From Chloroflexota bacterium (GTDB lineage: Bacteria; Chloroflexota; Dehalococcoidia; Lucifugimonadales; UBA2962), in NCBI GenBank assembly GCA_002699485.1, contig PAAV01000014.1, forward strand, positions 39,305-103,304: a DNA stretch of 64,000 nt, in the 5' to 3' direction. Shown here piece by piece: positions 46,685-50,026 of the stretch (position 1 is the stretch's first letter; each line of letters starts with the position of its first letter). The notes beneath the pieces are model-generated. The model had not been told where the DNA came from and ran no database searches. It saw only the letters and a program-made list of their open reading frames with translations. Both the position numbers and the translations under genes were made by a program.

Positions 46685-47356
46685 TTGATTGTTGAAATAG
46701 CGCTGGTCGTTGGTGCTTTCATAGTAGGCTCTATCCCAACATCGTATATTGCTGGTCGACTTTTACACGGTATTGATGTGAGAAGATTTGGGTCTGGCAA
46801 TGTTGGGTCTTCGAACATAATGCAAATTTCCGGAAAAAAACTGGGGTTATCAGTCGGCATTTTTGATGCATTTGCTAAAGGAACTACCCCGATTATTTTA
46901 GTTCGGTATTTATATCCAGAGCCATGGATGATGTTTGCGGTAGGCATTGCACTGGTTGCTGGGCACAACTGGAGTATTTTCCTTAAATTTACTGGAGGTA
47001 GAGGTGTTGCGACTACTATAGGTGTCGTGTTTGGTCTATTCATGTGGAAAGAGATCTTATTGCTTACCGTTGTGATGGGTGGGATGGGCAAAGTTTTATC
47101 AAAAGATATGAGTGCATGGACTTTGTGTGCGATGATTCTACTTCCGATATTGGCGTGGATTTTCAACCAACCACTTGAATATGTATATGCGTCTGTGGCA
47201 ATGAGCTGTGTTATGCTGCTGAAAAGGTTGACTGGCAATTTTGAAAAGATAGATACAAAAAATTCTTCATTTCTACTAATCCTATGTTGTCGCATAATTT
47301 GGGATAGAGATGTCCCAGATAGGGAAACCTGGATGCGTAGGAAATTAGGAAGTTAA
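46685..47356 (+). CDS. plsY: Glycerol-3-phosphate acyltransferase PlsY (TTG start)
   Basis: IVGSIPTSYIAGRLLHGIDVRRFGSGNVGSSNIMQ, GHNWSIFLKFTGGRGVATTIG. Confidence 0.93.
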   Translation: MIVEIALVVGAFIVGSIPTSYIAGRLLHGIDVRRFGSGNVGSSNIMQISGKKLGLSVGIFDAFAKGTTPIILVRYLYPEPWMMFAVGIALVAGHNWSIFLKFTGGRGVATTIGVVFGLFMWKEILLLTVVMGGMGKVLSKDMSAWTLCAMILLPILAWIFNQPLEYVYASVAMSCVMLLKRLTGNFEKIDTKNSSFLLILCCRIIWDRDVPDRETWMRRKLGS

Positions 47357-47500
47357 TCAGCTTTTACAAGTTCACTTAATTGCGTTATATGGGATGCAAT
47401 TGTTATTTGTTTCACAATATAATATATAATGAGGGTTAAATATTCCTTTAATAACTATGGATATAAACAATTCGAGTTTATTATCTGTTTTTTTTGCAAC

Positions 47501-47574
47501 CTATCGTAAATTTATGCAAGTTATCGTAAATTTATGGAAGTTATCGTAAATTTATGGAAGTTATCGTAAATTTA
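47501..47574. repeat. Tandem repeat array, 20-bp unit TTATCGTAAATTTATGGAAG, about 3.7 copies
   Basis: Units start at 47501 (2 mismatches), 47521, 47541 and 47561 (partial, 14 nt matched). Confidence 0.97.
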
Positions 47575-47694
47575 ACGAAACAGAATGGCTGAATTCGTAT
47601 ATTTAAGAAGAAATCGTCCCGTATCTGTAGTTATTTTTCGGAAGGATATATGTGAGAAATTTAAAATTTATGATTTGTATGATTTGGAAGTTAA

Positions 47695-48135
47695 ATGATA
47701 TTAGATAAGATAGACAAAAAAATAATTGAACTACTTGAGGTAGACGGACGCACATCTAATGCTTTTATCGCTAAGGAAATAGGAGTGAGTGAAGGCACTA
47801 TACGTCGAAGACTTGTAAAGCTACTTTCTGGTGATTACCTGCATGTGAATGCAGTAGCGAACCTAACTAAAATAGGACTGGATTCTCAAGCAATTGTTGG
47901 AATAAAGGCGGATGCAGATAAAGTTGAGCATATTGTTGCGACATTGAGTGAATTTCAAGAAGTTAAATGGATAACGGAGACTGCCGGACAATACGATGTA
48001 TTTTGCTGGGTAGCTTTAAGCACTCCCAAGGATCTCGGTAAGTTTTTGAGAGATAAGTTAGGGTGCATTGCCGGATTGCAAAGGTCAGAGACTTTTGTAA
48101 GCTTGGGCGGTATAGTCAAAAACTTAATGGCGTAA
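47695..48135 (+). CDS. Lrp/AsnC family transcriptional regulator
   Basis: LDKIDKKIIELLEVDGRTSNAFIAKEIGVSEGTIRRRLVKL HTH; AsnC ligand domain ITETAGQYDVFCWVAL. Confidence 0.95.
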   Translation: MILDKIDKKIIELLEVDGRTSNAFIAKEIGVSEGTIRRRLVKLLSGDYLHVNAVANLTKIGLDSQAIVGIKADADKVEHIVATLSEFQEVKWITETAGQYDVFCWVALSTPKDLGKFLRDKLGCIAGLQRSETFVSLGGIVKNLMA

Positions 48136-48232
48136 AATAAGTTACACATAGACTGTATTGAGATATGTTTTTGCTTGAACTTGATCGAAAATAAATATAC
48201 ATTTTCCCCTACTAGATATATGAGTAAAGACA

Positions 48233-50026
48233 TTGCATAAAAGTATTGATTGCGGCTCGGTTCGCAAAACACATTTAGGACAAGAGGTGGTCATTGCGGG
48301 ATGGGTACATCGTCGTAGAGACCACGGGAATATAATTTTCTTGGATTTGCGTGATCAGCAAGGGTTAGTTCAGGTAGTTTTTGATCCTAAATCTGCTCCC
48401 GAAGCACATATTACTGCTGAATCCGTTAGAAACGAATGGGTTTTGAAAATAAAAGGCGTGGTTTCTAATAGGCCTGAGGGCACGATAAACTCTGATATGC
48501 CAACTGGTGATGTTGAAGTTTTGGCAAGTGATCTAGAAATTATGTCCAGATCTAAAACCCCACCGTTTTATATCAATGAAGAGTCTGATGTTGATGAGTC
48601 AATACGATTAAGATATAGATACATGGACCTTCGGCGCCCTTTTATGCAAGAAATTTTGGTTTTACGTCATAAGGTAGTTAAATTTATACGAGATTTTCTT
48701 GACAGTCATAACTTCGTTGAAATAGAAACTCCAATCTTAATTAAAAGTACTCCGGAAGGTGCTAGAGACTATATTGTGCCAAGCCGAGTGCACCCAGGAA
48801 TGTTTTACGCATTGCCTCAGTCTCCTCAACAATTAAAGCAATTGCTGATGGCTTCTGGATTCGAAAAATATTTTCAAATAGCAAGATGCTTTCGTGATGA
48901 AGATCTAAGAGCCGATAGACAACCTGAGCATACACAACTTGATTTAGAGATGAGTTTTGTACATAGGGAAGACATCTTAGGCTTGATAGAGGAACTAATT
49001 ATTCAATTAGTTGAATCAGTAGTTCCCGATAAACAGCTTACAAATCCATTCCCTAGACTTGCTTACCATGAGTCTATGGCCAAATACGGCACAGACAAAC
49101 CGGATTTACGATTTGGTTTAGAAATTACCAATATTACAGATTGTTTTTCTAATAGCGATTTTCAGGTTTTCAAAAATGTTATTAAGGATGATGGTGTTGT
49201 TCAAGGAATAGTTGTTCCCGGACAAGGCAATATGCCGAGGAAAAAACTTGATAAACTTGTTGAGCAAGCTCGTGATCTGGGTGCTCAAGGATTGATTTGG
49301 GTTGGATTCTCAGAAGAATTTAACAGTGTAAACAATGGTTCCGATAACATTAGATCTTCCATATCAAAATATATATCTGACGAAGAGATTAATGATGTAG
49401 CTTCGGCTACTAAGGCATCAGCAAACGACTTATTATTAATTGTTTCAGGCGAGATAAAAATGACCCAAACTGTATTAGGGCAACTGAGAAATTCTCTTGG
49501 TTCCGTTCTAGGGTTGGCGAATAAAAATCAGTTGGAATTTGCTTACATAATCGACTTTCCTCTATTTGAACCCGGAGAAAATGAAGGACAGTGGACAGCT
49601 GCCCACCATGCTTTTACTATGCCGAAAGATGGTGACGCTGCGAAATTGGAAACAGATCCTGGGTCGGTCATAGCAGATTCTTACGATTTGGTATGTAATG
49701 GTTTAGAGATAGCTAGCGGAAGCATAAGAGTGCATGACAGAGAACTACAAGAACGAATATTAGGTGTATTAGGATATAGTACTGATCAAATAAGTGAACG
49801 TTTTGGACAATTATTAGAATCATTTGATTATGGCGCTCCTCCTCATGGAGGAATAGCTCCAGGAATCGATAGGTTAGTAATGGTGCTTGCAGGTCTAGAA
49901 AGCATCAGAGACACTATAGCCTTCCCAAAGACTCAGAGTGCAGTTGATCCTCTGTTCGGGTCACCTGGCCCAGTAGAAGATGTTCATCTGGCTGAGTTAA
50001 AGCTAAATATTATTGATACAGACTAG
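48233..50026 (+). CDS. aspS: Aspartyl-tRNA synthetase (TTG start)
   Basis: VIAGWVHRRRDHGNIIFLDLRDQQGLVQVVFDP, RCFRDEDLRADRQPEHTQLDLEMSF, GIAPGIDRLVMVLAG. Confidence 0.99.
   Translation: MHKSIDCGSVRKTHLGQEVVIAGWVHRRRDHGNIIFLDLRDQQGLVQVVFDPKSAPEAHITAESVRNEWVLKIKGVVSNRPEGTINSDMPTGDVEVLASDLEIMSRSKTPPFYINEESDVDESIRLRYRYMDLRRPFMQEILVLRHKVVKFIRDFLDSHNFVEIETPILIKSTPEGARDYIVPSRVHPGMFYALPQSPQQLKQLLMASGFEKYFQIARCFRDEDLRADRQPEHTQLDLEMSFVHREDILGLIEELIIQLVESVVPDKQLTNPFPRLAYHESMAKYGTDKPDLRFGLEITNITDCFSNSDFQVFKNVIKDDGVVQGIVVPGQGNMPRKKLDKLVEQARDLGAQGLIWVGFSEEFNSVNNGSDNIRSSISKYISDEEINDVASATKASANDLLLIVSGEIKMTQTVLGQLRNSLGSVLGLANKNQLEFAYIIDFPLFEPGENEGQWTAAHHAFTMPKDGDAAKLETDPGSVIADSYDLVCNGLEIASGSIRVHDRELQERILGVLGYSTDQISERFGQLLESFDYGAPPHGGIAPGIDRLVMVLAGLESIRDTIAFPKTQSAVDPLFGSPGPVEDVHLAELKLNIIDTD

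Follow-up and report, generated by a model that had tools for sequence, protein, structure and literature searches.

The window analyzed here, a 64-kb stretch of DNA, derives from a genome (G000; 1.9 Mb in 61 contigs, 90.7% complete, 5.6% contaminated) whose nearest relatives with a name belong to the SAR202 cluster (Chloroflexota), namely, G001 (contig JAKUTS010000005.1, ALOHA) and G004 (contig VFGV01000005.1, OSU_TB35); a further genome, G002, belongs to the same genus. The SAR202 bacteria are Chloroflexota of the deep ocean, abundant and for the most part uncultured. A full-text search of the open literature for papers that combine SAR202, transcriptional regulator, and Lrp found none. The genes rny, a PHP gene, plsY, lrp, aspS, and topA follow one another in identical order in the window and in G001. 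The lrp product consists of an AsnC-type HTH and a ligand-binding domain, and it is the sole Lrp/AsnC member detected in G000 (one match in a genome search); its closest solved relatives in the PDB are Lrp-type proteins of the PH1519/FL11 type, and the recognition-helix region of the HTH, VSEGT[IV]RRR, is almost invariant among the compared Lrp proteins of the order. Features of the locus are collected in Table 1.

Table 1. Position of genes and sequence elements around the plsY-lrp gap, in window coordinates
Feature	Position	Strand	Remarks
plsY (glycerol-3-phosphate acyltransferase)	46685..47356	+	Pfam PF02660, E 2.2e-36; upstream neighbor of the array gap
Probable lrp promoter, TGCAAT - 17 nt - TATAAT	47395..47423	+	conserved in congeners; predicted
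Species-specific extra DNA, ~230 bp	47425..47654		absent in G001, G004, and G002
Tandem array, period 20, 4.2 copies	47491..47574	+	TRF: 93% matches, score 133
TTGCAA beside the array	47494..47499	-	homologous to the -35 of the G001 solute-binding-protein promoter; leftward, -10 weak
Site 1, TATCGTAAATTTA	47502..47514	+	read from the sequence
Site 2, TATCGTAAATTTA	47522..47534	+	read from the sequence
Site 3, TATCGTAAATTTA	47542..47554	+	read from the sequence
Dispersed module	47558..47613	+	homologues in G000:C21 (86%, E 5e-17) and, twice, in G001:C12 (E 9e-15, 4e-10)
Site 4, TATCGTAAATTTAACGAA, quasi-palindrome TCGT-N7-ACGA	47562..47579	+	read from the sequence
Site 5, GAATTCGTATATTTA	47591..47605	+	includes GAATTCGTA (order-wide lrp-promoter word); core-to-core distance from site 4, 31 bp
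9-bp direct duplication, TATGATTTG x2	47669..47686	+	exact; directly before the lrp ribosome-binding site
Putative Shine-Dalgarno-like GGAAG of lrp	47686..47690	+	conserved in G001
lrp, Lrp/AsnC regulator, 146 aa	47695..48135	+	PF13404, E 1.6e-14; PF01037, E 1.8e-10

The 9-bp duplication before the ribosome-binding site is absent in congeners. From about lrp codon 91 into the start of aspS (47965-48270), species resemble one another unusually closely at the DNA level: third codon positions are conserved at 80 to 100% from that codon on versus 33 to 80% in the first 90 codons. No Rfam match and no covariation to speak of was found in this segment, and its conservation suggests a promoter, a DNA or RNA element, or recombination across the 3' end of lrp. 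Elsewhere in G000, a fragment of a solute-binding-protein gene is preceded by a 77-aa open reading frame (L130:1409-1642, G000:C25) that looks like an Lrp/AsnC ligand-binding (RAM) domain on its own.

The 20-bp array and its sites

The gap between plsY and lrp measures 338 bp (47357-47694), not 339 bp as given in the preliminary description of this DNA, and it holds the strongest TRF repeat of the window, the next one scoring only 72. None of 2,000 shuffles of the gap reached the score of the array (maximum, 90), and a separate repeat search returned unit spacings of 20, 20, and 20 bp, which confirms the four head-to-tail 20-bp units without spacers that had been reported. TATCGTAAATTTA occurs in all four units, at 47502, 47522, 47542, and 47562, and each occurrence includes the octamer TAAATTTA, as had been noted for a fixed phase of every unit. 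The earlier account of the array was thus accurate but incomplete, since it left out a fifth related site, TTCGTATATTTAA, with its core at 47595 and 31 bp past the fourth core, as well as the homology to other loci that extends to 47613 and the membership of the array in a dispersed module located at transporter promoters.

The full site is TCGTAWATTTAACG, a 13- to 14-bp quasi-palindrome. Among the five TCGTA-WATTTA sites of the window, site 4 alone has the full TCGT-N7-ACGA arms; array units 1 to 3 have lost the right-hand arm (ATG for ACG) and keep one arm and TAAATTTA. The TCGTA cores of the window lie at 0, 20, 40, 60, and 91 (steps of 20, 20, 20, and 31 bp), and the array sites are accordingly spaced center to center by the two or three helical turns typical of Lrp operators. 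In G001, the cores lie at +0, +31, +94, +105, and +136 (steps of 31, 63, 11, and 31 bp), including two pairs of TCGTAWATTTAACG sites, the two members of each pair being separated by exactly 31 bp. At 10.5 bp per turn, all G001 cores fall on one face of the helix (R 0.989, with a probability of ~0.001 under random spacings), and the window cores drift (R 0.73). Across the genome, the single 14-mer is not enriched over its reversed control, and a genome-wide regulon of this 14-mer was rejected. The proposal of an intrinsically bent region was likewise dropped because the computed curvature is ordinary; in the wedge model, the end-to-end ratio of the array is 0.960, and 73% of AT-matched 84-mers of the window are more curved.

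Promoter segment, extra DNA, and dispersed module

The predicted lrp promoter lies in a segment shared among congeners. Within it, GGATGCAATTGTTATTTGTTTCACAATATAATA is common to the window and G001, with close variants in G004 and G002, and TTGTTATTTGTTTCACAATAtAATA, whose TATAAT occupies 47418-47423 of the window, is common to the window, G001, and, with one base changed, G002, a diverged form being present in G004. This promoter was not among the results of a consensus promoter scan. The plsY-lrp gap is only 115 to 130 bp in G001, G004, and G002 (about 115 bp in the first two), versus 338 bp in the window, and the ~230 extra bp lie between the conserved promoter segment and the lrp ribosome-binding site; if the segment is indeed the promoter, the array would be part of a transcribed leader, about 75 to 145 nt after the start. 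No array is found upstream of lrp in G001 and G004, the two congeners that keep the gene, or at 27 other lrp loci of the order. An ancestral, conserved lrp operator was therefore rejected, and autoregulation as an ancestral trait is not supported, given both this absence and the position of the array downstream of the conserved promoter. In G002 (L184:2169-2473, G002:C62), lrp has been lost; all that separates plsY from aspS there is the promoter-like segment and, behind it, a relic of the first lrp codons, again without an array.

The right half of the extra DNA is a module with homologues elsewhere. DNA searches found a single homologue in its own genome (C21:13438-13509, opposite strand) and two adjacent copies among relatives (G001:C12). 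A profile built from the four copies detected no further convincing copy in 60 relatives, and a 25-base module pattern had no match outside G000 in a 393-genome sample of the class to which G001 did not belong; with two loci in G000 and one double locus in G001, a many-copy dispersed repeat was rejected. One weak profile match in G004 falls within the coding sequence of a carboxyltransferase-like gene and is thus attributed to chance. No match was found in phage records, and the module had none in viral contigs, so a viral or phage origin was also rejected.

The C21 copy lies in the intergenic stretch that separates an ABC permease gene from a solute-binding-protein gene, and the G001 copies are located upstream of a different, peptide-type solute-binding-protein gene (the names of the genes flanking the G001 copies are read off the sequences). 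In G001, the module adjoins the -35 of a promoter-like TTGCAA-17-TAGAAT, and ATCTG(T)nTTGCAA is common to the window and L088 (4419-4436). The G002 orthologue of the C21 solute-binding-protein gene has a conserved proximal promoter and largely unrelated sequence at the module position, so that G002, which has no lrp, also has no module there. An 11-bp x3 tandem repeat occurs at that position in G002 (L126:1379-1411, G002:C2), upstream of the solute-binding-protein -35 region. No module precedes the G000 fragment that is orthologous to, and 89% identical with, the solute-binding protein of G001. In addition, 17 bases at 47428-47444 and 14 bases at 47634-47647, which flank the array, correspond to neighboring portions of the 3' end of the C21 permease gene, as would be seen if this DNA had come from that junction and been rearranged; beyond 47613, 59 of 2,000 and 54 of 3,000 shuffles were as good, and an origin from the permease 3' end is only suggestive there.

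The 27 lrp loci from other families of the order share a promoter element. The word TTGACAGAWTTCGTA is present upstream of lrp in L014, L016, L018, L021, L022, L025-L033, L035, L037, and L038, where it comprises the -35 and, in the promoter spacer behind it, a conserved word; the order-type lrp promoter is TTGACAGAATTCGTA. TTCGT occurs in 18 of the 27 promoters versus 3 expected, and the log-likelihood of the de novo motif was 201, compared with 46 to 54 in shuffled sets. Across 40 genomes, with 0 to 2 exact TTGACWGAWTTCGTA matches per genome as a rule, all seven matches lie within ~100 bp upstream of lrp and on its strand; the word is therefore lrp specific, which suggests an autoregulatory operator and makes the TTGACAGAWTTCGTA word a candidate for that of the SAR202 Lrp. 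In the genus of the window, the lrp promoters themselves have lost this motif. Its core, GAATTCGTA, has one occurrence in the window gap (47591, within site 5) and two in the promoter region of the G001 solute-binding-protein gene, whereas 0.013 occurrences of the word family GAWTTCGTM are expected per 338 bp, in a comparison of promoter and module words that was chosen after the data were seen. All four array units carry TATCGTA, one change from WTTCGTA and a loose match to the order motif; this change, together with the missing right arm of units 1 to 3, accounts for their poor score against it.

A candidate Lrp-type operator and its alternatives

The sites bound by members of the Lrp family are 13- to 15-bp semi-palindromes with an AT-rich center that occur in clusters, with steps of two or three helical turns (PMC2995911, PMC10201364), and regulation of their own gene and clusters of imperfect palindromes are features of the family (PMC2995911). 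The helical spacing of the sites in the window and in G001 favors reading the array and module as a cluster of operator sites of Lrp/AsnC (feast/famine) type that is specific to this species, as do the order-word core GAATTCGTA within the module, the joint lack in G002 of lrp and of the module at the C21-type promoter, and the position of the array directly before the only lrp gene, the other copies preceding solute-binding-protein genes. The multi-site operator put forward in the preliminary description thus stands as the leading hypothesis, stripped of bending and of ancestral autoregulation, although we hold it tentatively, at just under an even chance; the absence of the module upstream of lrp in the lrp-intact congeners G001 and G004 counts against it. 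Also on the negative side are the unenriched 14-mer, the drift of the window cores, the missing right arms and loose order-motif match of the array units, the loss of that motif from the lrp promoters of the genus, and the G000 solute-binding-protein fragment that has no module. The module would have been gained, or kept, only in the window species. A plausible course is that a TCGTA-centered quasi-palindrome module, with sites two or three turns apart and normally found beside solute-binding-protein promoters in this SAR202 genus, came to lie downstream of the conserved lrp promoter and ahead of the start codon, where one 20-bp site unit may have been multiplied to four by tandem duplication, through slippage or unequal recombination. 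Lrp dimers or an octamer produced from the downstream gene could then occupy the five roughly in-phase sites and wrap the leader DNA, so that lrp transcription would be repressed or tuned, and the same protein may act on the transporter promoters.

The main rival, and a strong one that we consider distinctly possible, is that the array is a minisatellite without regulatory role: an intergenic fragment from between transporter permease and solute-binding-protein genes would have been inserted before lrp in this lineage, one 20-bp unit would have slipped to four, and lrp would still be driven by the conserved upstream promoter. The array is species specific and lies downstream of that promoter, the right arm has decayed in units 1 to 3, other short intergenic arrays exist in the genus (11 bp x3 in G002, 12 bp x3 in G001), the module has weak matches to the 3' end of the C21 permease on either side, and lrp is dispensable, having been deleted in G002, all of which agree with such a neutral origin. 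However, every copy has kept the TCGTA core, with spacings near whole turns of the helix, and the module, which contains the lrp-specific promoter word, was found nowhere but at promoters and beside lrp. Transporter promoters make up two of the three module loci, with the module adjoining their -35, and the lrp regions of congeners have no module; one could thus imagine the operator of a different dimeric regulator controlling solute-binding-protein genes, with lrp brought under that regulator where the module landed. We judge this improbable, because the gene next to the array is the sole lrp, the spacing and the GAATTCGTA word point to Lrp, and the module copies showed no linkage to any other regulator gene.

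The location downstream of the predicted transcription start would also suit an element of the lrp mRNA leader (an attenuator, a leader peptide, or a structured RNA), and short frames such as MEVIVNLWKLS are present, but these arise because a 20-bp unit gives 60-nt frames, and they have no Shine-Dalgarno sequence; MEVIVNLWKLS was accordingly rejected as a leader peptide and regarded as a by-product of the repeat. Neither an Rfam match nor a terminator-like site nor an inverted repeat was found, and at the other loci the module lies upstream of, not within, the predicted solute-binding-protein transcript, which leaves a leader element very unlikely. Replication iterons, or the remnant of a plasmid or phage origin, are hardly credible: the head-to-tail repeats have an iteron-like length, but the neighborhood is a chromosomal housekeeping one (rny, plsY, lrp, aspS, topA) with no replication initiator nearby.

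Should the Lrp-type operator be real, the Lrp protein of SAR202 would have a predicted operator and its first candidate regulon members, an order-wide lrp promoter word would be open to direct testing, and the locus would offer a natural example of tandem duplication giving rise to an operator array within a single species. A more far-reaching and rather unlikely scenario is operator turnover by module capture, in which lrp would be autoregulated in most families of the order via the promoter word, this word would have been lost in the window genus, and, in a single species, the transporter module would have been captured into the lrp leader and multiplied by helical steps. If that were so, autoregulation would have been rebuilt in the form of a variable-number repeat, and feast/famine control could be tuned through the number of its copies.

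Comparison with known Lrp operators and repeats

In Escherichia coli, Lrp operators are in-phase clusters of degenerate AT-rich sites upstream of amino acid and peptide transport genes, and transporter genes are typical targets; compared with the window sites, those of E. coli show greater degeneracy and occur in larger numbers across the genome. Intergenic minisatellites (VNTRs) likewise consist of short head-to-tail units with lineage-specific copy number, whereas the window units have retained a core of regulatory type near helical phase and resemble promoter modules at other loci. The BarR operators of the Sulfolobales offer a close parallel, with four to five regularly spaced semi-palindromes beside their own Lrp-type gene, spaced by two helical turns (Sa-BarR and St-BarR) or by a mixture of two and three (Ah-BarR), the DNA being wrapped around an octamer (PMC10201364). 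They differ in being archaeal and experimentally bound, in having 15-bp sites, and in lying between divergent genes (PMC10201364), whereas the window sites are species specific, lie within a predicted leader, and are known here from DNA sequence. FL11 of Pyrococcus recognizes a 13-bp palindromic site, and Ss-LrpB combines autoregulation with cooperative binding and DNA wrapping, spacing by two or three turns being a feature of the family (PMC2995911); compared with both, the window sites differ in sequence, are imperfect, and are tandemly duplicated.
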